Assembly: GCA_021819735.1 (NCBI GenBank)
Contig: JAKAFO010000012.1
Location: forward strand, 1 to 33,202
DNA: 33,202 nucleotides
Source: Deltaproteobacteria bacterium
Lineage (GTDB): Bacteria > Desulfobacterota > Desulfobacteria > Desulfobacterales > Desulfosarcinaceae
Reading direction: 5' to 3'
Under the pieces are notes generated by a model. It saw only the letters and a program-made list of their open reading frames with translations. It was not told where the DNA came from and did no database searches. The translations under genes and the position numbers were made by a program. Positions 677-15,383 of the stretch are shown here, one piece after another. Position 1 is the stretch's first letter; each line of letters starts with the position of its first letter.

Positions 677-1444
677 ATGCTGCTCGTCATTGATGTGGGA
701 AACACCAACATCGTCATGGGCGTTTACGATGGCGACAAGTTAATCGCCCATTGGCGCATCCGCACGGAACGCAACACCACCGAGGACGAATTCAACGTCC
801 TGGCTTCGGGGCTCTTTGCCCGCGGCAAAATGGATTTCAAGCAGATCCAGAAAACGGCCATCTCCAGCGTGGTGCCGCCCATGGTCAATATCCTGGATGC
901 CTTCGTGCGCAAATACCTGGGCCATGCCCCCCACTGGATCGATGCCAAGTCCTACCCGGGCATGCCGATTCTTTACAACAACCCCAACGAAGTGGGCGCC
1001 GACCGCATCGTCAATGCGGTAGCCGCTTACCAGCGCTACAAGACCGAACTGATCGTCATCGATTTCGGCACTGCCACCACCTTCGACGTCATCACCCAAA
1101 AGGGCGAGTACCTGGGCGGCGCCATCACGCCGGGCATCGGCATCTCCGCCGAAGCCCTCTTCGCCCGCGCCTCCAAACTGCCCCGGGTGGAGATCTTCAA
1201 ACGGCCGGCCAGCGTCATCGGCAAAGACACCATCGGCAGCATGCAATCCGGCATCATCTTCGGCTATGCCGGCCTGGTGGACGGCATGGTGCAGCGCATC
1301 CGCGCCGAACGCCAGGCCCAATCCAAGGTGATCGCCACCGGCGGCCTGGCGCCGCTGATCCAAAATGTGGCCACGACCATCGAATCGGTGGAACCGGACC
1401 TGACCTTGGAAGGGCTGAAGATTATTGCGGACAGCCTTCGCTGA
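677..1444 (+). CDS. coaX: Type III pantothenate kinase
   Basis: 255 aa; MLLVIDVGNTNIVMGVYDG start, GADRIVNAVAAY, DFGTATTFDVI, GGAITPGIGIS, ATGGLA motifs. Confidence 0.95.
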   Translation: MLLVIDVGNTNIVMGVYDGDKLIAHWRIRTERNTTEDEFNVLASGLFARGKMDFKQIQKTAISSVVPPMVNILDAFVRKYLGHAPHWIDAKSYPGMPILYNNPNEVGADRIVNAVAAYQRYKTELIVIDFGTATTFDVITQKGEYLGGAITPGIGISAEALFARASKLPRVEIFKRPASVIGKDTIGSMQSGIIFGYAGLVDGMVQRIRAERQAQSKVIATGGLAPLIQNVATTIESVEPDLTLEGLKIIADSLR

Positions 1445-1636: not shown

Positions 1637-2659
1637 TTAAAGCTCGATAGCTCTCACCATCCGGTAATAATCCAATAGGCTGTGTATAAATGCTTTCCCA
1701 TACATCATGGTTTCAATCGATCCCCTGCAGGATGTCCAGCAAGAGCGGCATGAGTTGCCATGGAACGCCGCAACCAGTTTTTTCCGAATTGCGCCGGCCT
1801 CCTCGTTCAAGATGTTGCCGACTGGCCGGTGGATCGTATCGATGCACAAAGAAACATCGCCTTTATTGTCAATATTGCACAAATTCTTCCCGGCATAACA
1901 GCGGTTGGGGTGTTCGCCTCGTATCGCCGCGGAAAACCCCGCCAAATAGCCACTTAAGGCCACAAAATCATTGTATTTGCGCTTTAAGCGCCGCAACAGG
2001 GCGCTGGGGTCCGATACCGGCGGACGAAGGGTTTTCGCGCCACGCGAACCCGAATAGAGCGTCACCAGATAGGTGATGCCCATTTTTCGGCATAACCGGA
2101 TCAAAGGTTCCACTTCCGGCAAATTGTCATCCATGATGACGGTTATCATGTGGACACGCTGGTCGGGACGGACACGATTGGCATGCAGGATCTGCAGCGC
2201 GTGCACTGCGCGATCGAAGGCGCCATAGACGCCCCGCTGCGCATCATGCTTCATGGCATCGGCAAAATCCACGGACACGCTGATCTCATCCAGTCCAGCC
2301 GAAAACAGTTCGCGCGCGATCCGCTCTGTGACGAACCAACCGTTGCAGATCATCACCGGAAAATGGCAACGCGCTAGCACCCGCACGATGTCCACAATCT
2401 CGGGATGGAGCAAAGGCTCACCGCCGCCGATGGAGATGATTTGCGGTCCAATCTGGTTCAACTTTTCAGATATGATCTTCACCTGATTCAGGGATAAGCG
2501 TGCTGTATTCTGATAAAAGTCGTGCCAGAATCCGCAGATACGGCAGCGAAAATTGCAGTGGTAAAGAATCTGCAAATTCGTGTGAACTAATTTTCGCCCC
2601 ATGAAAGAGCCCAAATATCGCAGTTTTTTGAACTTATGGGAATACTCGAAAGGTGTCAC
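1637..2659 (-). CDS. Radical SAM protein (operon rSAM-4)
   Basis: CNFRCRICGFW (CxxxCxxC), IISIGGGEPLLHP, C-terminal Cys-rich segment (CYAGKNLCNIDNKGDVSLCID...CRSCWTSCRG). GTG start at 2659 overlaps the upstream TGA (GTGA) after a GAGGAG Shine-Dalgarno sequence; the longer 1637..2881 ORF overlaps the hydrolase gene. Confidence 0.87.
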   Translation of the reverse strand: MTPFEYSHKFKKLRYLGSFMGRKLVHTNLQILYHCNFRCRICGFWHDFYQNTARLSLNQVKIISEKLNQIGPQIISIGGGEPLLHPEIVDIVRVLARCHFPVMICNGWFVTERIARELFSAGLDEISVSVDFADAMKHDAQRGVYGAFDRAVHALQILHANRVRPDQRVHMITVIMDDNLPEVEPLIRLCRKMGITYLVTLYSGSRGAKTLRPPVSDPSALLRRLKRKYNDFVALSGYLAGFSAAIRGEHPNRCYAGKNLCNIDNKGDVSLCIDTIHRPVGNILNEEAGAIRKKLVAAFHGNSCRSCWTSCRGSIETMMYGKAFIHSLLDYYRMVRAIEL

Positions 2660-3654
2660 GATGGCTCCTCGGGTAGCCTCCGGACCAGAGGCAGTAAAAG
2701 CGTGGCCAGCCGATACCATTGTGCGAGATTGAACGCATTGGAAAAATCGACATGGTTGAGCAGATCGGTCACCAGCATGCGTGGGATTGTTCCAGAAGCA
2801 GATAGTTCCCGGGCAATACCACGGGCGTGCTCGGAAGGCACTAGGCTGTCGCCGGCAGCGTGCAGCAGTCCCACCGGGCATCGAATTGCATTCAGTTTAC
2901 CGGCGGGGGAGAGTTGTCCACAGAGTTCATCATTCATCATCGCCTTCTCAAGTTCTATCAACACCTCGCTGCCCAGGTGGCGCTGATAGAAAGTTCTCTT
3001 TTCTTCGATGGTGCTGGCATGGCAGTAACGCTCGAGTAAATCGGTCAATTCATGGATAACCGCTTCCGCCAATGGCAGGCGGGCGGCATGGCGCCTTGCC
3101 ATCGCCAATTGCAGATAGAGCCAATTATCCCAGTCCCTGGCTTGTTGCGGCCAGGTTCGGCCGAAGGTCATCTGATGCCGGAAGAGATCGCCCAGTGAAT
3201 AATAAGCGCCGAACGAAAGGACAAACCCGACGCGCGTTGCCACAAGCGGGTGGGCCGCGGCCATAAGGGCATAGCTGCCGCCATAGCTGAAACCGATCAG
3301 CCCGACGCGCGCCCCAAGACTGGAGAACTCATCAACCAAATCTACCAACCCAACAATATCATCAGGTATCCACTGGAACCGCGACAAGCCCGGCAGCGTA
3401 GGGACGATGCACAATGCGCCTGAAGCAGCCAGGCATTGCGCCAGATGCTGCAACCGAGGATCATCTTTGCCGTTCCAGGTGCCGCCGTGCAAGGCGATAA
3501 GGGTTGCGTCTGCGCGCCCCTTGGGCCTGAAAAGATCGTACGCCATCCCATGGGACGACATGGCGTTGCGCTGAACGTCGCCGACCCGCGACGCCCTGCG
3601 GCGCGCCACGCGCATGAACAAACCGATCAGTCTGAGTAGATCCGAGCCCTTCAA
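2656..3654 (-). CDS. Alpha/beta hydrolase
   Basis: 332 aa; LIALHGGTWNGKDD oxyanion-type motif, nucleophile elbow GFSYGGSYAL, late LLNHVDF. TTG start overlaps the preceding stop (TTGA). Confidence 0.8.
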   Translation of the reverse strand: MKGSDLLRLIGLFMRVARRRASRVGDVQRNAMSSHGMAYDLFRPKGRADATLIALHGGTWNGKDDPRLQHLAQCLAASGALCIVPTLPGLSRFQWIPDDIVGLVDLVDEFSSLGARVGLIGFSYGGSYALMAAAHPLVATRVGFVLSFGAYYSLGDLFRHQMTFGRTWPQQARDWDNWLYLQLAMARRHAARLPLAEAVIHELTDLLERYCHASTIEEKRTFYQRHLGSEVLIELEKAMMNDELCGQLSPAGKLNAIRCPVGLLHAAGDSLVPSEHARGIARELSASGTIPRMLVTDLLNHVDFSNAFNLAQWYRLATLLLPLVRRLPEEPS

Positions 3655-4982
3655 GACTCATTTTCCTTTTGGCCTGCAACAAGTTTAGATTGGGGTTGCT
3701 CGGCCCGAAACCAAAACTTCATTTCCATTCGATTCAGATATAGAAACCATCCCAATCCCACGATCAGAAAGAGCTCCGTGGCCTCTTCCCAAAAATCCAT
3801 CCACGCCGGCGATAAACGAAAAGCCTCCAGCAGAAAGAAGCGAAAAAGGGAAAAGCTCATCAACCCCATAGCGGTGAAAAATGGCAGCTGCGCCGATTTT
3901 AGGAATGCTACGCCTTTGAATGTGCGCGCCCAGGCGACGAAAAAGAATGCTGCTGCTAAAAAAGAGTAGAGCCGAAAGTCGGCCAATTGCAGGTTGATGG
4001 AGTAGGAGTAAAGGACGGGTGTGGCGAACACCATCGACTCCTGATGAAGCACACGCAACGGCGTGCACCAGGGCATCAACGCTGTAATGGCCAGGGCTGG
4101 TATCGCCAGCAACAGGAGCCGTTGCAATCGGCACGACACGTTCTGATATTTCCAGCAGGCACCGCAGAGCCGTTTGAAAGCGCAAGCCCGCGCAGGGGCG
4201 GTGACTGATAAAACGCGCTCATCCAGAAGGACCACCAGGCCCCAGCTGACCAAGGCGCCCATAAACACCATGCCCAATCCATGCAACGCATCGAACGAGT
4301 CGCTTGCGCCGCTGAAGATCAGATAGTTCAAGGCGCAGAAAGACTCGCCAACCAAAAAGGCGATCAGGCCCCCGCGAATCAAGGCGACGTCCCGGGACTT
4401 ATTCCCCCAAAGTCCAAGGATCAAAGCCAGGGTCAAGGCCATATAGGTCGGCTTGAACCCCAATCCAGAAATGGTGGCCGCCAATTGTTGTATGCGGCTC
4501 ATGGGGACCAAAACCGGTGAGAAATTCTCCGATCCAGCCGCACCATCGGTTGCACCCGCTTGCAGGACAAAGGCCTGGTTGCGCCACTGGGCCACTCCGC
4601 CATGCAACGAGACGACATTACCGAAGCCCTGTCCCTTGGCCACGGCGGCCGCCGGGACTGAAAGATAGCCGCTGGGACAGGTGATGACCAGCGGCTTGGT
4701 ACGATCCAACGATAGGCGCGGAAGCTGTTCCTCCAATTTTTTATAATCCACCCAGCGCGCACCGGGAAGGTGCCCTTCCAAATAAAATTGGCGGGGACCG
4801 ACATCGAGGAACTGAAACTCCTTGCCCGCCTGCAACGATCGCTGCAACTGTTCAGCCGATATGGACCCGACGCCAACGACCCACTCCAAGCCGGATGAGC
4901 AGCCCATGCATGTCAGGGTCCCGCATAGAATGATCAGGTGAATGACCATGGCCTTAATGATCTTGTTGCTATCAGAAGTCAT
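3651..4982 (-). CDS. Rhodanese-domain lipoprotein fused to a polytopic membrane domain
   Basis: Start at MTSDSNKIIK with SD GAGGAAGG; N-terminal hydrophobic segment with lipobox-like TCMGC; rhodanese domain with loop CPSGYLS and LHGGVAQWRNQ; then several hydrophobic segments. Confidence 0.75.
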   Translation of the reverse strand: MTSDSNKIIKAMVIHLIILCGTLTCMGCSSGLEWVVGVGSISAEQLQRSLQAGKEFQFLDVGPRQFYLEGHLPGARWVDYKKLEEQLPRLSLDRTKPLVITCPSGYLSVPAAAVAKGQGFGNVVSLHGGVAQWRNQAFVLQAGATDGAAGSENFSPVLVPMSRIQQLAATISGLGFKPTYMALTLALILGLWGNKSRDVALIRGGLIAFLVGESFCALNYLIFSGASDSFDALHGLGMVFMGALVSWGLVVLLDERVLSVTAPARACAFKRLCGACWKYQNVSCRLQRLLLLAIPALAITALMPWCTPLRVLHQESMVFATPVLYSYSINLQLADFRLYSFLAAAFFFVAWARTFKGVAFLKSAQLPFFTAMGLMSFSLFRFFLLEAFRLSPAWMDFWEEATELFLIVGLGWFLYLNRMEMKFWFRAEQPQSKLVAGQKENES

Positions 4983-6027
4983 GCCTTCCTCGCCGGGATT
5001 TGCAAAAGGCTCGCACCGAAAGATACGCCTCATGCGCCAAGGACAAAGGCTGATCCAGCATCAACGCAAAACTCAAGGCGCAAGCCGAATGGCAGCGGTT
5101 GTCACAACGCGGCTCCGGGCCGAAACTTCGTTTGCCCTGAATGCGCAGGAGGTGCAGATCTGCTGTCCGGCGCAGGTTACCGGCGATCGTCCCCCGCTCC
5201 AGGCAGGGATAAAACACGTCGCCTTGGGGCGCAACGGCCAGCACCGTGCTGGGACGGCAGGCGAAGCACGCCAGGTCACGCATATGCTGCAGGTAGCGCA
5301 CGGTGCCATTGATTGCTTCGCCGCGCCTTTTGGCCGTCAGCAGATCGTCGAAAATCTGCCGGTACGCACTGTTTTGGGCCAAGGCCGGGTGGGGCTTGAC
5401 CCCCAGCAACTGCGGGGCCAATGCAAAACGAAACCCGCGTTCACGGCAATAGCGATGAACTGCTCGAAGGTCGTCAAGGTTATCCGGGGTGGCTACGGCT
5501 GAAATGATGATCTCATAGGCACGCCGGGGCCACGTTGCGGCCGAATGGATGTTATGCAAAACTTTCTTCAGGGTGCCTGCACCTGCCCCGAACCAACGAT
5601 CCGCTTTGTCATGGTTTAGGGTATCGATGGAAAACACTAAATAGCGAACCGCCTTATTGATCAATGGCAGATAAGGCTTGATCGCATAACCATTGGTCGT
5701 CAGCACGATGCCGTCAAATCCCAGGGAGGGCAAACCGCGCAGCACCTGCCCGCAGGCCGCGTGGTTGAAAGGCTCGCCGCCGGTGATGACCAGATAATCA
5801 CAGTAACGCCGGATCGTTCGCAGCAATTCGAGCACCTCGGCGGCTGGCAGATCGGCGCGGGGCAATCGGTAGTAGGGGACATGGTTGCCATCGCTGCAAT
5901 ACGGGCAGCGGAAATCGCAGGCGTAGGTCAGATAGTAGACCGCCAGCAATGGATGCCAGCCCACAGGTTTTCTTGTGATGAAGTGAATCAAATAGTTGCG
6001 GACCGAACGCCACATCGCGTTAATCAC
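4972..6027 (-). CDS. Radical SAM protein with C-terminal Cys-rich (SPASM-like) region (operon rSAM-3)
   Basis: CDFRCPYCSDG, YLVITGGEPFNH, C-terminal CFACRPS...GDVFYPCLE...CDNRCHSAC. Confidence 0.88.
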   Translation of the reverse strand: MINAMWRSVRNYLIHFITRKPVGWHPLLAVYYLTYACDFRCPYCSDGNHVPYYRLPRADLPAAEVLELLRTIRRYCDYLVITGGEPFNHAACGQVLRGLPSLGFDGIVLTTNGYAIKPYLPLINKAVRYLVFSIDTLNHDKADRWFGAGAGTLKKVLHNIHSAATWPRRAYEIIISAVATPDNLDDLRAVHRYCRERGFRFALAPQLLGVKPHPALAQNSAYRQIFDDLLTAKRRGEAINGTVRYLQHMRDLACFACRPSTVLAVAPQGDVFYPCLERGTIAGNLRRTADLHLLRIQGKRSFGPEPRCDNRCHSACALSFALMLDQPLSLAHEAYLSVRAFCKSRRGRHDF

Positions 6028-7450
6028 CCATCAGATTGTTGCGCACACAGGCCGGCAGCAATTTTAGATCGGCCTGGGGATAGTGGTTGCAGCATTTGAC
6101 GGCCCTGGAAAGATCGAAAGTGGCCCGATCCATGAAGTGGTGGATAAAGATCGATTTGACATGACTGGTGCCCAACTCCAGCACGGCGCGATGGGGGGCG
6201 GCCGGCCCCAGGCGGTTGAGATCGGTCAGAATCCCCTTGATGGTCTTCAGCACCGCCTCGCGTTGGGGCACAATACCGTCCGAGGACCACAAGGAGTAAA
6301 GCGCATCTCGAACCCGCCGCAGTGAATCCATATCCGTGCCAAGCAGGGCCTGATTCTTGATGATGTCCAGATAGTCTTGCGTGGGAATAATGGACGGCAG
6401 CGACACCAGCGCACCTGCGTTGGTCTTGAGCAGATAGGTCAGTGCAAAACAGCTGGGATGGGAGCAGGGCAGCGGAGAGAAATCCGAATATTTCAATACC
6501 CCTGCCGCGGCCTCCACCAGAAGTTTCACCGCATCGGCGATGGTGATCACCTGCATGGCATCGCCCAGCCCGTTGGCCTGGGCCAGGGGCTGCACCATTA
6601 CGCTGAGAATTTCCTCATGGGCGAACAACAAACCGAGAATGCCACCCAATTCCCCCTCGTTGACCCCTTGGGCCAGGGTCACCGTGAGCGAAAAGCGCGC
6701 CTTCAGGGCGATCAAGCGCTCAACGAGACGCTGTTTGAGGTCGGCCAAATGGGCGACGCCGCGTAACGTCCGGTAGGTCTCGGGCCGAAATCCGTCGAAC
6801 TGCAGGGCAATGACAACACCCCGGTCGCGGAGCGCTTTGATCAAGTCATCGTTTCCGTCCAGGCGGATCCCGTTGGTGGAAACCGACACAATGCCCACCT
6901 CGGGTCTCAGGCAGGCATCCACAATCGCAAGGAAATGGGGATGCAGCGTCGGCTCGCCGCCGCTGAGCGTGAGCATGTTGAGCTTGCCTTCGCAGCGCAC
7001 CAGGCGCTTCATGATGGCATTCACCTGGGGCACGCTCAGTTCGGTCAAGGATCGGCCTTTGACCAGGCAGATGGGGCAGTTGAGATTGCACTGCGAAGTG
7101 ATTTCCAGGATGGGCACACAGGTATGCTGTTGATGTTGCGGACACAGGCCGCAGGAGTCCGGGCAGCCCACAAAGGTATCCACCGACCGTTCCAGGGGGC
7201 GGGTGCCGGGTTTGATGTAGGCCATGCTGTCCAGATACCATTTAGGGTCTGAGCTAACCAGGGCGCGGCTGATACCGTGATCGGGACACCATTTGACCAA
7301 AACCACCCGACCTGCTTCGATGCGAATCTGGGCATCGGTCAACCGCCCGCACTGGTTGCATAGCGCCTGGGTGGCCGTCAGGCACACCCCGGACGCTTGG
7401 CTGATCGGGCCCGATGCGCTGCCACGCGATCTGTCTATGTCTTCTGCCAA
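6020..7450 (-). CDS. Tetraether-synthase-like (Tes/MJ0619-type) radical SAM protein (operon rSAM-2)
   Basis: N-terminal CNQC...CPDHG pair, CPDSCGLCPQHQQHTC, CNLNCPICLVKG, LTLSGGEPTLHP, C-terminal KCCNHYPQADLKLLPAC: the multi-cluster cysteine layout of the Tes/MJ0619 family. Confidence 0.82.
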   Translation of the reverse strand: MAEDIDRSRGSASGPISQASGVCLTATQALCNQCGRLTDAQIRIEAGRVVLVKWCPDHGISRALVSSDPKWYLDSMAYIKPGTRPLERSVDTFVGCPDSCGLCPQHQQHTCVPILEITSQCNLNCPICLVKGRSLTELSVPQVNAIMKRLVRCEGKLNMLTLSGGEPTLHPHFLAIVDACLRPEVGIVSVSTNGIRLDGNDDLIKALRDRGVVIALQFDGFRPETYRTLRGVAHLADLKQRLVERLIALKARFSLTVTLAQGVNEGELGGILGLLFAHEEILSVMVQPLAQANGLGDAMQVITIADAVKLLVEAAAGVLKYSDFSPLPCSHPSCFALTYLLKTNAGALVSLPSIIPTQDYLDIIKNQALLGTDMDSLRRVRDALYSLWSSDGIVPQREAVLKTIKGILTDLNRLGPAAPHRAVLELGTSHVKSIFIHHFMDRATFDLSRAVKCCNHYPQADLKLLPACVRNNLMGD

Positions 7451-8856
7451 AAGCGATCATCCTTTTGCCGATAGAACAGGTTGTAGTTGCACGCCCCCAC
7501 GAGCCGCTGGGCATCCACCGGCACTTGATCCGAACAGCGCATGGCGCGACCGATCTCATAAGTGTCTTCATCCATGTGGGCATGGATATAGATGGTCTTA
7601 ACCATACTCTCCGCCCGTTGTTGACGTGCATGCAGGGTCAGATGCTCATCGGTGGGATAGACGTGGCGCAACATCCTTTTTACTACCGATAGCAATTGCG
7701 CCTGACCGCCCTGACTCCAGAGCCTGTCGATGGCCTCTTTCAGGGCGGTTTCCAATTCCGCCGAAGGCTGCATGAGATATCCGCCGACCAGGTTACGGGC
7801 CATGGTATCCCGATCGAGCAGCGCCCGAAAGGAATGCAGGGCATCTTTATCGCCGAGCAGATAGGACACCGCGTAACACAAGGGATGAACGCCGGGCAGA
7901 GGCATGAAGTCATCGGCCGAGAGGCGGCCGCGGCTGGCGGCTGCGATCCTTCGCACGACGCCATCCACGGGGATATGTTCGCGGGGCTCGAAAAAGGCGC
8001 CCCCCTGTCCGGTGTAGGTCATGGTTTGGATCGTCAGGCTGCGCACATGCTCATGGGTTAACAAGAGCGACCACAACGATTCAATCTCATGCTCGTTGAC
8101 GCCGCCCACCAAAACCATCAGCAACGTGGTCTGCACGCCGAATCGGCCAAGGTTCTCCAGGGCCGCCATTTTCTGAGCGGTGATATCCCGGCTGTGTAGC
8201 CTTTGACTGATGTCCCTATCCAATGTGTCCAAAGAGAGCACCACATAGACGCCCATTTCGGCCAACCGCGCCGCGATCTCGGGGTTGGCGGCCAGGGAAA
8301 GGCCGTTGGAGTTCAGGGTGATACGTCCGATGCGGGGGTGTCGGGCCCTGGCCAGCAAATCGAACAGTTGGGGGTGCAGCGTCGGCTCCCCTCCGGTGAT
8401 ATTCACCAGATCCACACCGCCAGTGGTTTCCACCACAAATTCAATCTGGCGCCCGAACTCTTCGGGAGACATGAAATAGATCTTGTCGCTGCGGTTATAG
8501 GTAAAGCAGATCGGACAGCGCAAATTGCAGGCATTGGTGATGGAAAAAACCGGCAGGCGGCAGGCCTGGGCATGGAAGGAACACGGTCCGCAGCCATCGG
8601 GACAGGCTTTTTGCTTCGGCATCGTTTTGGGCGGCGGGCAACCCGAAGATGGCCGTTGCATGGCATCCAGATACCAGGCCAGGCTTTCGGCCACCAAGGC
8701 CCGCGAACCGTAATGTTCCGGGCAAAGCCGCTCCAGATAGACCCGGTCCTGATCGGCCACATAGCGCACGGGAACCATCTTGCCGCAAACCCGGCACACC
8801 CCCCGCGACTGGGATAAGTAAGTGGGGGCCGCATTTCTGATGTCGCACTGCATCAT
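7435..8856 (-). CDS. Tetraether-synthase-like (Tes/MJ0619-type) radical SAM protein (operon rSAM-1)
   Basis: N-terminal CRVC...LCPEHYG, CPDGCGPCSFHAQAC, CNLRCPICFTYN, VNITGGEPTLHP, C-terminal RCSDQVPVDAQRLVGAC; paralogue of the next gene. Start overlaps the SDR stop (ATGA). Confidence 0.82.
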   Translation of the reverse strand: MMQCDIRNAAPTYLSQSRGVCRVCGKMVPVRYVADQDRVYLERLCPEHYGSRALVAESLAWYLDAMQRPSSGCPPPKTMPKQKACPDGCGPCSFHAQACRLPVFSITNACNLRCPICFTYNRSDKIYFMSPEEFGRQIEFVVETTGGVDLVNITGGEPTLHPQLFDLLARARHPRIGRITLNSNGLSLAANPEIAARLAEMGVYVVLSLDTLDRDISQRLHSRDITAQKMAALENLGRFGVQTTLLMVLVGGVNEHEIESLWSLLLTHEHVRSLTIQTMTYTGQGGAFFEPREHIPVDGVVRRIAAASRGRLSADDFMPLPGVHPLCYAVSYLLGDKDALHSFRALLDRDTMARNLVGGYLMQPSAELETALKEAIDRLWSQGGQAQLLSVVKRMLRHVYPTDEHLTLHARQQRAESMVKTIYIHAHMDEDTYEIGRAMRCSDQVPVDAQRLVGACNYNLFYRQKDDRFWQKT

Positions 8857-9587
8857 AACCCGCCGTCGATGACCATGCGCTGGGCATTAATATACGTGGC
8901 CCGCGCCGAAGCCAGAAACGCCACCATCTCGGCCACCTCCCGGGGGTCTCCCGGACGCCCCATGGAGCAATAGGCATTGTACTCCTCCAGTTGCCGCGGA
9001 GAGACATTGCTGCCGATGCCCCCTTCGATAAGACCAGGGCAGATTTCGTTGACACGGATGCCATAGCGGCACAACTCCTTGGCCAGCGACAATGTAAAAC
9101 CGCTGACCGCGGCTTTGGCTGTCGCATAATGCACCGGCACCTCCAGCAACCGGTGGCCGCCGATGGAACCCATGTTAAGGATGACCCCCTGCTTGCGGCG
9201 CACCATGCCGCGCAATACGGCTTTGGAGAAGAGAAACATGCTTTTAATATTGACCTGCATGATATCGTCCCAATCTTCTTCATCCAGCAGAGCAAACGGC
9301 ATGACTTGGATGATACCCAGATTGTTCACCAGAACATCGATGCGGCCAAATTCCTCTTCCACCCGCGTGCAGAAGGCTTCTATGGCTTGTCCCGAACGGG
9401 CTTCCACCGGCGCAAAGAAGACGCGCCGGCCCAAACTTTCGATCTCCGCGGCCAACTCGTGGGCCCGGGCTTCTTGCTTGTGAAAAGTAAAAGCGATATC
9501 GCTTCCATCCCGGGCCAACGCCTGACAAATGGCTTTTCCCACGGCGCCGGTGCCACCGGTGACCAGGCTGATCCGCTCGGCTGCCAT
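8853..9587 (-). CDS. Short-chain dehydrogenase/reductase (3-oxoacyl-ACP reductase-like)
   Basis: ISLVTGGTGAVGKAICQALA Rossmann motif, VNNLGI, catalytic YATAKAA, C-terminal VIDGGL. Confidence 0.88.
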   Translation of the reverse strand: MAAERISLVTGGTGAVGKAICQALARDGSDIAFTFHKQEARAHELAAEIESLGRRVFFAPVEARSGQAIEAFCTRVEEEFGRIDVLVNNLGIIQVMPFALLDEEDWDDIMQVNIKSMFLFSKAVLRGMVRRKQGVILNMGSIGGHRLLEVPVHYATAKAAVSGFTLSLAKELCRYGIRVNEICPGLIEGGIGSNVSPRQLEEYNAYCSMGRPGDPREVAEMVAFLASARATYINAQRMVIDGGL

Positions 9588-9605
9588 ATTCTTCCTCCCT
9601 ATAGT

Positions 9606-9995
9606 TTACTGCCCATGGTTCAGTTTCTTTTCGATGACTTTGGCGATTTCGCCCACTGTCAGCAATGAAGCCAATTGGTTGCGGGTGCTGCCGTGAACCA
9701 GATGATCCGCGGCCGGCCCAAAACGCCGGCGCAGCAGCTCCAGCGCCTTGGGTGTCAGGACTTCATCGACATGGATCTCTTCGTCGGCAATACCCAGTTG
9801 GGCGCTTAGACTCATGTCCTTTTTGCTCAAACGCAGATTGAATTCCTGCTCCATCAGGTACATCAGCTCCACCAAATCGAGAGAATCCGCCCCCAGGTCA
9901 TCGATCAGGCGGCTGTGCGCCTTGATATCAGCCGGCGCGATGGCCAGCACTTCGCCCAAGCATTTCTTGATCCGCTCCACGGTACCGAGTTCCAT
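9606..9995 (-). CDS. Acyl carrier protein, extended (129 aa)
   Basis: DLGADSLDLVELM phosphopantetheine motif; helical ACP fold motifs; a long insertion before the last helix (TVGEIAKVIEKKL). Confidence 0.9.
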   Translation of the reverse strand: MELGTVERIKKCLGEVLAIAPADIKAHSRLIDDLGADSLDLVELMYLMEQEFNLRLSKKDMSLSAQLGIADEEIHVDEVLTPKALELLRRRFGPAADHLVHGSTRNQLASLLTVGEIAKVIEKKLNHGQ

Positions 9996-10013
9996 TGATT
10001 CTCTTGCTCCTTA

Positions 10014-10766
10014 TCAAAAACCTGAAAAAGCGCCATCCACCGCGATCACGGCGCCATGAATATAGGCCGCCTCATCCGAGGCCAGAAAGGCCGCCACGGC
10101 GGCCACCTCCTGCACTGTGCCCACCCGGTGCAGGCCGATGCGTTCGAGGACCGCCGCGCCGGCCAGATTCATGACCGGGCGGGTCATATCGGTGGCGATG
10201 ATGCCGGGCGCGATGGCGTTGACACGTATCTGCTTGCGCCCCAGCTCGGCGGCCATGGCCCGGGTGAACGATTCGACATACCCCTTGGTGCCGGCATAGA
10301 CGGCGTTGCCGCGGCCGGGCCGAGCCGCCAACACGGAGGAGAAATTGATAATAACGCCCGATCGTTGTTTGAGCATCGGTTTCAGCGCTGCACGACTCAT
10401 CCAGGTCACACCCAACACATTGGTGGCCACCTGACGCTGGATCTCTTCATCTTCCAAGATACCCAAAGGCGCTTCGATCACGGCGCCGGCACAGTTCACC
10501 AGCACATCCAGGCGACCGAACCGGTGGAGGGCCAGCCGGACCATTTGCTCGGCTGTAGCCGCTTCTCCCACATCGGCGCACAGATAGACCGTTTCTGCTT
10601 CGTGGGCCATGCATGCCTCCGCCACAGCTTTCAGCGGCTCCTCCTTGCGACTGTTGAGGACCAGATGCGTCCGTTCCCCTGCCAGCCGCTCCGCCACGGC
10701 ACGACCAATGCCTCTGGATGCGCCTGTAATGACAGCCACCTTATTGTGTAATCCAGACAGCTGCAT
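10014..10766 (-). CDS. Short-chain dehydrogenase/reductase (FabG-like)
   Basis: VAVITGASRGIGRAVAERLA, VNCAG, YAGTKGYVESF, VNAIAPGIIATDM; start chosen by GGAGGT SD upstream of ATG at 10766. Confidence 0.9.
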   Translation of the reverse strand: MQLSGLHNKVAVITGASRGIGRAVAERLAGERTHLVLNSRKEEPLKAVAEACMAHEAETVYLCADVGEAATAEQMVRLALHRFGRLDVLVNCAGAVIEAPLGILEDEEIQRQVATNVLGVTWMSRAALKPMLKQRSGVIINFSSVLAARPGRGNAVYAGTKGYVESFTRAMAAELGRKQIRVNAIAPGIIATDMTRPVMNLAGAAVLERIGLHRVGTVQEVAAVAAFLASDEAAYIHGAVIAVDGAFSGF

Positions 10767-10788
10767 GGTTTGCGCACCTCCCATTTCC

Positions 10789-12075
10789 CTATCCTGGCTG
10801 CACGACGCCGGCCACGATGGCCGCATTCTGGCCGCCGAAGCCGAACGAATTGGACAAAAAGGTTTCGATGACAGCAAGCCGAGGCCGGTTGGGAACATAG
10901 TCCAGGTCACAGGCCGGATCGGGTTGTTCCAGGTTGATGGTGGCCGGAACGATCCCTTGGGTCAAGGCGAAAATGCCCGCCACGAACTCCACGGCACCGG
11001 CGGCGCCGATGAGATGACCGATCTGGCTCTTGAGAGAGCTGACCGGGATTTTGTCCGCCGCAGGGCCGCACAACCGTCGTATGGCCCGGGTCTCCACCGG
11101 ATCGTTTTTGGGTGTGCCGGTCCCATGGGCATTGATGTAACCGATCTGTGTCGGCGGCAGGCCGGCCAGTCCCAGTGCAGCTTTCATAGCACGCAGGGCA
11201 CCTTCGCCATCGGGATCGGGATCAGCCACGCCATGGGCATCCAGCGAGGCGCCATACCCCAGTACTTCCGCATAGAAGTGGGCTCCTCGCCGACGGGCGG
11301 CCCCATACTCCTCCAGGACCATGATGGCGCTGCCCTCGCCCAAAACAAATCCATCCCGCCGTGCGTCAAAGGGCCGCGAGGCCGCGTCTTTCAAATGATT
11401 GGCGCTCGACAGCGCACCAAGCATACAAAACCCGCCGACACCCAAGGGATTCACCATGCTGTCATAGCCGCCAGTCACGACCATGTCCGCCAACCCGCCG
11501 CGGATGGCCCAAAAAGCTTCACCGATGGCCTGGGTCCCGGCCGCGCAAGCCGAGACATTAACCACCAGGCGGCCCTTTACGCCCGCATGTCGGGCAATCG
11601 CCCGGGCAGCCAGGTGGGCGGGGATTTGCAGCCGGGAGTATACTGGCGACTGCTGGACCGTCTCCATGAGCGACCTGGCATCCACGCCCCGGTCGCCAAG
11701 GTGCTGGACCAAATCCACGAGCAGAAAGATTTCAAGACCGGAGGCGATAAAAGCGGAGATACGCGCGCCATCGTAAAAATCACTTGGCGCATGGCGGCCG
11801 AAAGCGTCAACCAGGGCCTGCTGGGCAGCGGCCAAGGCAAAACGAGATTTGGGGTCCCGCTCGATGGCGGCGTGTTGCGCTGCAGGCAACCAGCCGGGCA
11901 GCGCCACAGGTGCTTTGACTTCGCCGGCGATCTGGGTTGGAAAGCCCCGAGCGTCAAAGGATGCAATCGGTCCCACACCGCTTTGGGCCTGCCTTAGCCC
12001 TTCGTAAAAGGCTCCCAGACCGATCCCGATCGGCGTCACGACGCCAATGCCGGTCACCACCACGCGTCTTTTCAA
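10789..12075 (-). CDS. Beta-ketoacyl-ACP synthase (KAS II/FabF type), catalytically intact
   Basis: NVSACAAGTQAIG (active Cys), INAHGTGTPKND (His), SSLKSQIGHLIGAAG (His), NSFGFGGQNA. Confidence 0.93.
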   Translation of the reverse strand: MKRRVVVTGIGVVTPIGIGLGAFYEGLRQAQSGVGPIASFDARGFPTQIAGEVKAPVALPGWLPAAQHAAIERDPKSRFALAAAQQALVDAFGRHAPSDFYDGARISAFIASGLEIFLLVDLVQHLGDRGVDARSLMETVQQSPVYSRLQIPAHLAARAIARHAGVKGRLVVNVSACAAGTQAIGEAFWAIRGGLADMVVTGGYDSMVNPLGVGGFCMLGALSSANHLKDAASRPFDARRDGFVLGEGSAIMVLEEYGAARRRGAHFYAEVLGYGASLDAHGVADPDPDGEGALRAMKAALGLAGLPPTQIGYINAHGTGTPKNDPVETRAIRRLCGPAADKIPVSSLKSQIGHLIGAAGAVEFVAGIFALTQGIVPATINLEQPDPACDLDYVPNRPRLAVIETFLSNSFGFGGQNAAIVAGVVQPG

Positions 12076-13232
12076 GAGTGTGCCCCGATGCGTTTAAGGT
12101 GCACCGCCACGGGGATCTCTTCCGGGGCCCAAGCAAAGACGAGCATATCCCGGGCAGCTCCCAAGCCGCTCCAATTTTGGGCGGTTCCGCCAAGAAGGCA
12201 ATTGGCCGCCAATGCACAAGTCAGCGGTACGGCTGCGGCGGCCGCATATCCCAATTGTCTATCCAGGCTCAATAGCCGCAGCTTTTGCTCTGGCCAGGCT
12301 TGATCGCACGCGCATCGCATTCGCCTATCGTCGGCATCGTCCAGGCTGCCGGTCAGCAGAAGGCCATCCGGCGCATGGCTGGGAATCATGGTGCGCAACA
12401 GCTCCGCAAGTTCTTCCGATTGCTGGCCGTCTTTCCCCATGATCGTCACCCCCCCTATCTCGGCCATGGGACGGGCACTGCGCTCGGCAGCGGCCTGCTC
12501 CGATTCGAGCACCAGAAATGCCGCCGCATCCGCAAGCGCCCACCCGCTTCTTCCTTCCTGGGATACCCGCGCCACTCGACCAAGCCGCGCCAGGGTGGCG
12601 ATGGGAATCAGGCTGAGTCCTTGCACCCCTCCGCCGACCAGGGCTCTTTCGAAACGCCCGGATTGAATACCCTGGACGGCTGTTTCAAGCGCCAGACCGC
12701 CTTGGTCGGCGCCGGGATAGAGGATGAAATTCTCTCCTCCGATTCCATAAACAATGGAAACCAGGCCCAGCGGCATATTGAGCAGCATCTTAAACGGCAT
12801 GAGGGGATTACACAGCGGCAAGCCTTTTTCACCCATCTGCTTCAAATCCAGCGCCCGATCCGCTGTAATGCTGGCGCGCATGGCGTCCGTGACTCGGGAG
12901 AGGTCGAAGGCAATCAGGCCTGTGGAGATAAAAAGCGCCATCTCCCGACAGCAGACGTCATGGCGAAGGCCGGCATGCTCCAAAGCCATCCCCGCGGCCG
13001 CGACAGTCAGGGCAGTGGTTTGGTTCATGTATTTTGCCATTTTTCGATCAGGAAGATAAGCGCTCAAATCAAACGCCCTGGCGGGCGCCCCGAGGATCTC
13101 CGGAAAATCGGCGCCATCCGGACGGTAAACAGTTACCGCGCTCCGGCCATCGTCTAATGCCTGCCAGGTCTGTGCCAAATCGCCCAGTCCGCTCTGTAGT
13201 CCGATACCCGTAATAAAAACGCGCGGCATCAA
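12072..13232 (-). CDS. Degenerate beta-ketoacyl synthase, chain-length-factor-like partner
   Basis: KS-like start MMPRVFITGIGLQSGLGD; active-site region reads GENFILYPGADQGG, with no Cys where TAC is expected; no HGTGT or KSxxGH motif. ATGA overlap with the intact KS gene. Confidence 0.82.
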   Translation of the reverse strand: MMPRVFITGIGLQSGLGDLAQTWQALDDGRSAVTVYRPDGADFPEILGAPARAFDLSAYLPDRKMAKYMNQTTALTVAAAGMALEHAGLRHDVCCREMALFISTGLIAFDLSRVTDAMRASITADRALDLKQMGEKGLPLCNPLMPFKMLLNMPLGLVSIVYGIGGENFILYPGADQGGLALETAVQGIQSGRFERALVGGGVQGLSLIPIATLARLGRVARVSQEGRSGWALADAAAFLVLESEQAAAERSARPMAEIGGVTIMGKDGQQSEELAELLRTMIPSHAPDGLLLTGSLDDADDRRMRCACDQAWPEQKLRLLSLDRQLGYAAAAAVPLTCALAANCLLGGTAQNWSGLGAARDMLVFAWAPEEIPVAVHLKRIGAHS

Positions 13233-13690
13233 ACAAACCTCGTCTTACGGGTCAAATTGGCCAGCACCTCGAAACGGGCGGACTCCAGGCGATCATCGTC
13301 GATTTGAAGAAAAATATAAAGAAATTCGGCTTCGCATACCCGCTGCGAGTCCCGGGTCGTAATCACGGTGAGTTTGGCTGACTCTTCGTGACGCGAAAGT
13401 ATTTCGGCCTTCATCTGCAAGCAATCTCCGGGCCTCACAAAATCACGAAATTTGGCCTTGACCGTGGATACCACGCAGCGTGGGCAACGGATCATTTCAT
13501 CACGCAGTGAAAGCTCGAGCAAGGCGCCCCCCAGTTGGGCCATGGACTCGGTGAGCAAAGCGCCCGGGTAAACCGGTTGCCCCGGAAAATGGTGTTCGAA
13601 GCAATCCTCACTGAGCGTGATGCATTTGACGCCAGTGGCATAGGCAAACTTTTTTACTTCATCGATGCGATCAACCAACAGATAACGCAA
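13229..13690 (-). CDS. 3-hydroxyacyl-ACP dehydratase, FabZ/hotdog family
   Basis: EHHFPGQPVYPGALLTESMAQLGG matches the FabZ catalytic His and Glu region. Confidence 0.88.
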   Translation of the reverse strand: MRYLLVDRIDEVKKFAYATGVKCITLSEDCFEHHFPGQPVYPGALLTESMAQLGGALLELSLRDEMIRCPRCVVSTVKAKFRDFVRPGDCLQMKAEILSRHEESAKLTVITTRDSQRVCEAEFLYIFLQIDDDRLESARFEVLANLTRKTRFV

Positions 13691-13707
13691 GAGACGACTC
13701 CCTTTCT

Positions 13708-14337
13708 CTATTCCAGATGCCTGAGAATTTGTGCGATACTTCGCCGCTTGGGCGCAGGCGGGCTTTCATCCGGATAGCCCACGGGTATCAATGCTGAAAT
13801 GGCCCAACCCGCCGGCACATCGAGCAAGCGCTCCATGGCCGCGCGTGCTATCAAAGGGCCAGTCATCCAGCAGGCCCCCAACCCCAGGGTCTGCGCAGCC
13901 AGCAGCAGATTCATGATGGCCGCTGAAACAGAACAATAGACATTCGCGATAGCGTCCTTCTCGCTCACAACCTCTTGGTCGCAAAAAATGTTGAGCAGGT
14001 TGGTGCCATGCCGATGGATGGGCACGATGAGCAACGGTGCTCTGGAGAAAAAAAGGAAGTTTTCCGAATAGCGCATTGCTTGATCGCGATAGTCATCTCG
14101 CACCAGAGCTTGAATTCGCCATATTTCTTGCCTCACGGCGTCGGCCAGGGCAGATAGAACTTCACTACGAGTAACGGCAACAAACCGAAACCCCTGTTGA
14201 TTACCTGCGCTGGGCGCCCAGCGAGCCGCCTCCATCAACATATCGACACATTCATGCGGCACCGGTTGCGGTCGAAAACAACGGATACTTCTCCGCTGCT
14301 GCACAATCCTCAAAAATGAGCGATATTCAGCGGTCAT
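13708..14337 (-). CDS. Nitroreductase family protein
   Basis: QQRRSIRCFRPQPVP, AARWAPSAGNQQGFRFV, LLAAQTLGLGACWMTGP motifs. Confidence 0.87.
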   Translation of the reverse strand: MTAEYRSFLRIVQQRRSIRCFRPQPVPHECVDMLMEAARWAPSAGNQQGFRFVAVTRSEVLSALADAVRQEIWRIQALVRDDYRDQAMRYSENFLFFSRAPLLIVPIHRHGTNLLNIFCDQEVVSEKDAIANVYCSVSAAIMNLLLAAQTLGLGACWMTGPLIARAAMERLLDVPAGWAISALIPVGYPDESPPAPKRRSIAQILRHLE

Positions 14338-14435: not shown

Positions 14436-15383
14436 TCACAAGCGATTGGATCGAGAAGCGATATTACCTGAATCGGCAAGATACCCCCAGTAGCCGCGTA
14501 CGCTGTTGTTCAAAAAGAAGCGCTCGCGTCCCTGGGCCGCTGTGGATAATTGCGCAAAGCCGGATAGCAGCGGATCGTTGGCCAGCAGGTGCTCCAGGCA
14601 GTCGGCCATGCCGTTTTTGGTATTCCGCGGATCGGCCTCGAACCAGGGCTGGATCATCCGTCGCCAATCGAGCAACTGGGCGCGGTGGGTTTGCAGCCGG
14701 GCGCACGCGTCGGCTTGTAGGCCAATGTGGCCGTAAGCCAGGCGTCCGGGACGGTGGGCAAGCAGATGGTCGATGCTCGCCAGATAAGTCTCCAGGTGCA
14801 ATTTCGGCGGTGTGGCCGGACGCATGTAAAAGCGGTCGTCGCCCAGCGAGATGCAGACCCCGCCGGCTTCGCCGGCAAACAACAGGTCGCCGATCAGATA
14901 GCTGTATTGATGGGGCGCATGACCGGGCGTTGGAATGGCGCTGATGCCCGGCGCCGTCAAGCGGTCCGCGGCCACCACCTGGGCTGCGGGCACCGGTGTC
15001 ATCGGCCCATAGCGCCGGGCCACATCCCCCAGGGTCTTGACGCTCCCTTCCCACAGCCGCTGGGGATCGATGACGTGCTCCATGGCCTTGGGATGACACA
15101 CCACGGGGGTCTGGGAAAAGGCGGCGGCAACCTCACCAATAGCGCCGGCATGATCCAAGTGGATGTGGGTCAGCAAGATCAGATCGGGTTGCCGAATGCC
15201 CATGCCGGCCAGGACTTCTATCAGATGGGCCGCGCCCGAAGAGGGACCCACATCCACCAGCACCACCGGGCCGCCGGTATAGAGCCAAGCCGTAACGAAG
15301 CCGTCGAAACCCTCGATGGGCACCGGCAGGGGGATCAGATAGAGATCATCATCTATTTTTTGGGTATCGGGTCCGGAGGACAT
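14436..15383 (-). CDS. MBL-fold metallo-hydrolase
   Basis: LLTHIHLDHAGAIGE (HxHxDH), PTPGHAPHQYSYLI, YGHIG. Confidence 0.9.
   Translation of the reverse strand: MSSGPDTQKIDDDLYLIPLPVPIEGFDGFVTAWLYTGGPVVLVDVGPSSGAAHLIEVLAGMGIRQPDLILLTHIHLDHAGAIGEVAAAFSQTPVVCHPKAMEHVIDPQRLWEGSVKTLGDVARRYGPMTPVPAAQVVAADRLTAPGISAIPTPGHAPHQYSYLIGDLLFAGEAGGVCISLGDDRFYMRPATPPKLHLETYLASIDHLLAHRPGRLAYGHIGLQADACARLQTHRAQLLDWRRMIQPWFEADPRNTKNGMADCLEHLLANDPLLSGFAQLSTAAQGRERFFLNNSVRGYWGYLADSGNIASRSNRL
14500..14610 (-). repeat. Right copy of the MBL 3'-end direct repeat (left copy 1465-1590)
   Basis: Shared blocks include cctgggccg, aaagccggatag, gatcgttgg/ggtcgttgg, cagcaggt and tccaggcag; same orientation. Confidence 0.75.

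Follow-up and report, generated by a model that had tools for sequence, protein, structure and literature searches.

The window analysed here is a stretch of 33,202 nucleotides from a deltaproteobacterium of the family Desulfosarcinaceae (GenBank assembly GCA_021819735.1, contig JAKAFO010000012.1), and its subject is an operon of 13 genes located between positions 14337 and 1637 on the minus strand. The first-pass annotation, which was made from the DNA sequence only, had proposed an undescribed biosynthetic operon in which a type II fatty acid synthase (FAS)/polyketide synthase (PKS) module is combined with radical S-adenosylmethionine (rSAM) enzymes related to Tes (tetraether lipid synthase), the archaeal enzyme that cross-links membrane lipids. 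Coordinates, strand and domains of all 13 open reading frames (ORFs) were confirmed by an ORF and domain check, with several corrections of start positions (Table 1). The operon would link an assembly system of polyketide or fatty-acid type, in uncultured bacteria, with Tes-like radical chemistry that acts on inert carbons. It is tentatively read here as a member of a conserved biosynthetic cluster family in which the product of a reducing type II PKS is sulfurated by two paralogous enzymes, rSAM1 and rSAM2.

Organisation of the operon and its polyketide module

Overlaps of 4 bases are present at DH/CLF, CLF/KS, SDR2/rSAM1 and RHO/ABH, and overlaps of 16 and 8 bases at rSAM1/rSAM2 and rSAM2/rSAM3, respectively. 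The start positions were corrected for KR (ATG at about 10784 or 10766, not 10910), RHO (about 4982) and rSAM4 (GTG at about 2659, overlapping ABH by 4 bases). Promoter and terminator scans gave a signal no better than that in shuffled sequences.

Table 1. Genes of the operon and its flanks, with positions in the window, assignment and supporting matches or motifs.
Gene	Position	Strand	Assignment	Match or motif
NTR	13708..14337	-	nitroreductase-family flavoprotein, BluB/FbiB-like	Pfam PF00881 3.2e-36; orthologue in most clusters
DH	13229..13690	-	FabZ-like hotdog dehydratase, TTG start	Pfam FabA 8.2e-18; fabZ 2.2e-27
CLF	12072..13232	-	chain-length-factor-like, degenerate ketosynthase	
KS	10789..12075	-	ketosynthase with Cys, His, Lys and His motifs	fabF 2.5e-125; alignment
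KR	10014..10784	-	FabG-like ketoreductase	Pfam adh_short_C2 6.4e-55; TGASRGIG and YxxxK
ACP	9606..9995	-	acyl carrier protein, phosphopantetheine Ser (GADSLDL), C-terminal extension	Pfam PP-binding 1.1e-10
SDR2	8853..9587	-	second SDR reductase, kept near rSAM1 across clusters	Pfam 4.2e-55
rSAM1	7435..8856	-	Tes-like rSAM with rubredoxin-like, N-terminal and C-terminal auxiliary-cluster Cys	
rSAM2	6020..7450	-	Tes-like rSAM with Tes Cys ligand positions and Y459	
rSAM3	4972..6027	-	PTO1314-like rSAM	
RHO	3651..4982	-	rhodanese domain (active-site Cys loop) fused to polytopic membrane domain	Pfam Rhodanese 1.6e-11
ABH	2656..3654	-	alpha/beta hydrolase, possible chain-release enzyme	Pfam Abhydrolase_6 7.6e-10
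rSAM4	1637..2659	-	rSAM with SPASM-like Cys-rich C-terminus, probable GTG start at 2659	
Metallo-beta-lactamase-fold hydrolase	14436..15383	-	possible 14th gene	Pfam 2.5e-21
Type III pantothenate kinase	677..1444		convergent gene, bounds the operon downstream	

In the alignment, the Cys, His and His residues of KS, whose best solved matches are FabF-type enzymes, are intact, and its CLF partner has lost the KS Cys and His; the position of the catalytic Cys is occupied by Ala in the window and by Glu in the related loci L071, L072 and L090. The catalytic His and Glu motif of DH is intact (HHFPGQPVYPGALLTESMAQ), and YxxxK is kept in both KR and SDR2. With a discrete ACP and with intact catalytic motifs in KR and DH, the module has the features of a reducing type II PKS. 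Among the cluster genes no enoyl reductase was recognised, and an unsaturated chain is therefore likely, unless the chain is reduced by the nitroreductase. The same arrangement of KS and Cys-less partner, KR, DH and discrete ACP without a recognised enoyl reductase is known from highly reducing type II PKS (aryl polyene, ishigamide, cispentacin AmcF-AmcG); unlike these, the operon and its relatives carry four rSAM enzymes, a nitroreductase and cysteine desulfurase or rhodanese genes, a combination for which no highly reducing type II PKS was found reported in the open-access literature searched. Several other KS genes are present in the window genome, and the PKS module of the operon is therefore an additional one. 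Large ketosynthase-bearing ORFs of 1459-2370 aa were observed on contigs C41, C174, C290 and C509, and the genome is therefore rich in other polyketide genes.

Distribution of the cluster family

Cluster-type rSAM1 was found in 17 of the genomes sampled, a total that includes the window genome and locus L009 and comprises 11 genomes of the deltaproteobacterial side and 6 Planctomycetota. Whole-genome searches gave the carriers G287, G508, G544, G553 and G570 in the window's phylum and G1061, G1141, G1193 and G1228 in its class, and the planctomycete carriers (6/294 genomes) are G970, G816, G726, G737, G842 and G758. The carriers are mostly uncultured bacteria of two phyla, and the form of the cluster varies. 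Synteny had been named in the first-pass annotation as the check on its proposal of a conserved unit, and the proposal is supported, as KS lies in the same block as rSAM1 in most of the 17 genomes. The recurrence of the gene set in two phyla is more than chance. As a negative control, five planctomycete loci in which a Tes-like gene occurs singly were searched together with flanks of up to 10 kb, and no other cluster gene was found. Cluster-type rSAM1 was absent from all ten other searched genomes of the window's genus, and the distribution is therefore patchy; in near relatives of the window genome only Tes/TrsS-like proteins turned up, not the cluster.

The fullest gene order is DH-CLF-KS-KR-NTR-ACP-SDR2-DH2-rSAM1-HEX-rSAM3-rSAM4-rSAM2-PEMT-CYSD, where HEX denotes a hexapeptide transferase, PEMT a PEMT/ICMT-type methyltransferase and CYSD a cysteine desulfurase, and the members show rearrangements and losses. 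DH2, a second hotdog-like protein of about 150 aa without the catalytic His, is located beside SDR2 or rSAM1 in many clusters, not in the window. L009 belongs to the deltaproteobacterial metagenome-assembled genome DeMMO6_18, has the order KS-KR-NTR-ACP-RHO-DUF1571-SDR2-rSAM1-rSAM2-rSAM3 and is 66-67% identical to the window in SDR2 (66%), rSAM1 and rSAM2; SDR2 of L090, L121, L123 and L147 is 46-52% identical to that of the window. L147 (G1061, from the order of the window genome) contains DUF1571, rSAM4, rSAM3, RHO, DH, CLF, KS, KR, NTR, ACP, SDR2, DH2, rSAM1 and rSAM2. Orthologues of rSAM3 are present in L009, L121, L123/L129, L128 and L147, and those of rSAM4 were identified by alignment in most of the longer clusters. 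Some loci deviate: L091 and L122 are truncated where their contigs end, L148 is fragmentary, and KS is absent from the 13.6 kb contig of L092. From their ends, we infer that L123 and L129 of G726 are the halves of one cluster broken inside rSAM3.

The clusters were assigned to type A (window, L009, L071, L072, L090, L092, L121, L122/L128, L123/L129 and L147) and type B (L124, L125 and L127, with L149 and L150 added by CLF similarity). A class-III aminotransferase is present in L125 and L127 and in the extra rSAM1 loci L126 and L130. The type-B clusters and the extra rSAM1-SDR-aminotransferase modules in Planctomycetota (L124, L125, L126, L127 and L130) suggest a second product class. Separately, in the one-contig 7.0 Mb genome G1141 the fragmentary cluster L148 (4376-14061) was seen to contain a truncated KS beside an IcmF-like gene, and an rSAM2 ORF fused to a creatininase domain.

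The first-pass annotation had drawn a parallel to ladderane biosynthesis. The Kuenenia/Desulfotalea clusters (PMC2649909), proposed to encode a ladderane or polyunsaturated-hydrocarbon pathway, likewise contain type II FAS genes, inactive and degenerate KS paralogues and four rSAM enzymes, and they occur in Planctomycetota and Deltaproteobacteria; however, they are marked by phytoene-dehydrogenase-like genes, and neither such a gene nor a phenylacetyl-CoA-ligase gene was seen among the cluster genes scanned with Pfam. Moreover, rSAM1/rSAM2 were not found in presumptive anammox genomes, none of about 17 such genomes of Planctomycetota giving an rSAM1-like match at E<=1e-50. The parallel was thus not borne out, and the assignment of the operon to a pathway of this type, which is highly improbable, was rejected on distribution and gene content. 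Anammox status was taken from an HZS-alpha-type ORF of 800-860 aa. The Pfam domain HZS_alpha (PF18582) alone was unsuitable as a marker, since long ORFs of genomes that are apparently not anammox contain it many times, and ORF length was therefore added as a criterion; multiple copies were observed, for example, in G970, G838 and G853, which do not look like anammox genomes. For non-anammox Desulfobacterota and other phyla, antiSMASH 'ladderane' calls of unknown meaning have been reported (PMC9902471), and it is speculation that clusters like the window operon are among them.

The paired Tes-like enzymes

Tes-like chemistry, as proposed at first for the rSAM enzymes of the operon in general, holds for two of the four: only rSAM1 and rSAM2 are Tes/TrsS-related, with an HMPTM zinc-ribbon, and rSAM3 and rSAM4 are PTO1314/SPASM-like. 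The resemblance of the latter two to SPASM-type maturases would fit the maturation of a ribosomally synthesised and post-translationally modified peptide, with the PKS genes making an acyl cap or being unrelated neighbours. This is very improbable, as no conserved small precursor ORF was noticed (no systematic search for one was made), and the conserved ORF beside SDR2/rSAM1, DH2, aligns with the hotdog dehydratase.

In the tree, the rSAM1 clade and the rSAM2 clade are each supported with 100/100 and both together with 100/99, separate from Tes and TrsS-like proteins and nearest to single-copy planctomycete Tes-like proteins. These single-copy proteins, which form the nearest clades, were located at L010-L014 and L100-L113. 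Pairwise distances of rSAM1 and rSAM2 correlate with r=0.96, compared with 0.39-0.84 for other cluster gene pairs, values that in part reflect the common host phylogeny. The closest solved relative is Tes, also named GDGT-MAS (MJ0619, PDB 7tol/7tom). rSAM2 aligns to it over the full length (7tol, 7.5e-50, phmmer), and a structure search with an AlphaFold2 model of rSAM1 (pLDDT 76.6, pTM 0.81) gave Tes 7tom as the first match (E 1e-28, TM 0.78 over 504 columns). The full-length fold is shared with Tes, as are the rubredoxin-like, N-auxiliary, rSAM and C-auxiliary Cys ligands and, probably, the use of an acyl-chain substrate.

For residue comparisons, the aligned part of Tes from the 7tol match was used as reference, with its numbering adjusted to residues named in PMC9433317. 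The ligand Cys residues of the rubredoxin site, the N-auxiliary cluster (plus its His) and the rSAM cluster are kept in all 28 rSAM1/rSAM2 proteins, and H36 of the rubredoxin site varies in part of rSAM1. Cys338, Cys455 and Cys470 are likewise kept in 28/28 proteins, a conservation that points to them as the three ligands of the C-terminal auxiliary cluster. Differences from Tes concern the position of the labile Met439, which is His in 28/28 proteins, Tyr459, which is kept in rSAM2 only, and C456, which is lost in most rSAM1 proteins including that of the window. Unlike Tes, moreover, rSAM1 and rSAM2 are two co-evolving paralogues in one cluster, and their genes lie among those for a type II PKS and for sulfur supply. 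The Tes model NF045702 has a cut-off of 450 bits, and rSAM1 and rSAM2 reach 168.3 and 206.8 bits; with the TrsS model NF045646, still the best NCBIfam match of both, they reach 196.7 and 219.5 bits against a cut-off of 490. The domain layout matches that of TrsS, an rSAM (seleno)protein, but both enzymes fall in a clade apart from the TrsS/Tes-like relatives included in the tree; the three relatives from the window's order in the residue comparison have Met and not His at position 439. A TGA codon flagged in rSAM1 of L148 is an ordinary stop codon, so that nothing points to a selenoprotein form like that of TrsS.

These data bear on the possibility that rSAM1 and rSAM2 make net C-C bonds as Tes does, with sulfur only transient and the PKS chains joined or cyclised to a membrane-spanning or macrocyclic lipid. 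Besides the match in fold and cofactors, this is in line with the proposal that bacterial Tes homologues make bacterial membrane-spanning lipids (PMC8941075), and a hint of lipid trafficking comes from a DUF1571 protein, weakly similar to MucB/RseB, that is encoded close to the clusters of L009 and L147. It is nevertheless unlikely: Met439, reported to be fully conserved in archaeal Tes, is replaced in all members, rSAM1 is without Tyr459, C456 is gone in most type-A members, the bit scores lie far below the Tes cut-off, and sulfur that is regenerated would need no dedicated desulfurase. Of the first-pass annotation, the joining of a type II FAS/PKS module to Tes-like rSAM chemistry in a conserved unit is upheld, and cross-linking to a membrane-spanning lipid persists as this rival explanation.

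Sulfur-supply genes and the proposed sulfuration

According to PMC9433317, the substrate radical in Tes becomes bonded to one of the sulfides in the C-terminal cluster, and limiting SAM leads to the build-up of a lipid that has gained one sulfur. Genes for sulfur supply, which had been overlooked in the first-pass annotation, accompany eight clusters. An IscS-type cysteine desulfurase is present in five clusters (L071, L072, L090, L092 and that of G726); in L071 it is IscS-like (3.5e-79) with a C-terminal rhodanese domain, and its active-site Cys is present in L071 and L072. In L071 the gene is upstream of rSAM1 at a distance of 21 bases; in L072 and L090 the two genes overlap. RHO takes its place in the window, L009 and L147, where the motif C-x5-C-x2-C-x7-C of its membrane domain is invariant; its AlphaFold2 model (pLDDT 50.5) was too poor for use. 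Outside the operon, the window genome yielded only desulfurases with about 35% identity to the cluster type.

These genes favour C-S over C-C chemistry, and since Tes acts via a C-S intermediate on its auxiliary cluster, sulfuration of the PKS product is the best reading of the operon. An acyl chain, bound to ACP and probably unsaturated, would be built by KS/CLF, KR, DH and ACP. rSAM1 and rSAM2, probably as a heterodimer or in sequence, would abstract hydrogen from an unactivated carbon, and the resulting carbon radical would be captured by a sulfide belonging to the C-terminal auxiliary [Fe4S4] cluster. The C-S bond, transient en route to C-C coupling in Tes, would here be retained, leaving net sulfur in the chain, and sulfur would be re-supplied by the desulfurase or, in the window, L009 and L147, by the rhodanese protein. 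Tailoring may involve rSAM3, rSAM4, SDR2 and the nitroreductase, in other clusters also the methyltransferase and the hexapeptide transferase, and the alpha/beta hydrolase may release the product. The proposed attack of a substrate radical on an auxiliary-cluster sulfide that needs re-supply follows the logic of the sulfur-inserting rSAM enzymes lipoyl synthase, biotin synthase and MiaB-type proteins; these belong to another subfamily, and sulfur insertion by rSAM1/rSAM2 is a proposal. The ligand set and the adjacent desulfurase are only consistent with a sacrificial auxiliary cluster and net sulfur transfer.

Several points weigh against sulfuration. The surroundings of the type-B clusters L124, L125 and L127, for which some contigs are incomplete, yielded neither a desulfurase nor a rhodanese gene, and net sulfur demand may therefore not be common to the family. 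The desulfurase could serve Fe-S assembly in several rSAM enzymes instead of substrate sulfuration, the rhodanese domain of RHO may lie outside the cytoplasm, part of the rSAM1/rSAM2 distance correlation stems from host phylogeny, and no product is known for any cluster member. Accommodating the first two points, rSAM1 and rSAM2 might catalyse another radical reaction on acyl-ACP (desaturation, carbocyclisation, epimerisation or methylation), in which case desulfurase and rhodanese would serve only the upkeep of Fe-S clusters. Four rSAM proteins require a large number of such clusters, and the reactions of relatives, TrsS among them, are not yet known. This is judged quite unlikely, as the desulfurase adjoins or overlaps rSAM1 in three clusters and Tes chemistry passes through a C-S bond (PMC9433317).

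Direct observations concern the gene content and synteny, the phylogeny, the conserved ligands, the match in fold and the position of the desulfurase beside rSAM1, and the substrate, the sequence of steps, the heterodimer and the product are inferred from them. Overall, the frame, a reducing type II PKS whose product is modified by a Tes-derived rSAM pair, is considered probable, and net sulfur insertion, reached by reasoning from the Tes route, falls just short of an even chance. With somewhat more reserve, the clusters might represent anaerobic biosynthesis of a new class: a heteromeric Tes-derived rSAM pair, fed by a dedicated desulfurase or rhodanese, would thiolate the acyl chain of a type II PKS at an unactivated carbon and give a sulfur-bearing lipid or metabolite in Deltaproteobacteria and Planctomycetota. 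No description of the cluster was found in open-access literature on type II PKS combined with radical SAM enzymes and a cysteine desulfurase; the family is real and conserved and, within the literature searched, apparently undescribed. It offers a test bed for whether the carbon-sulfur stage can be an end point for Tes-family enzymes, and it supplies concrete candidate genes for a new lipid or metabolite in two phyla with little-known natural products.

Upstream of the operon, at a distance of 98 bases, the metallo-beta-lactamase-fold gene may or may not belong to it; no counterpart was found in the other clusters. In L092 (3500-7214), a complete Gabija pair (GajA 9e-181, GajB 4.5e-209) was observed between rSAM1 and the cysteine desulfurase.

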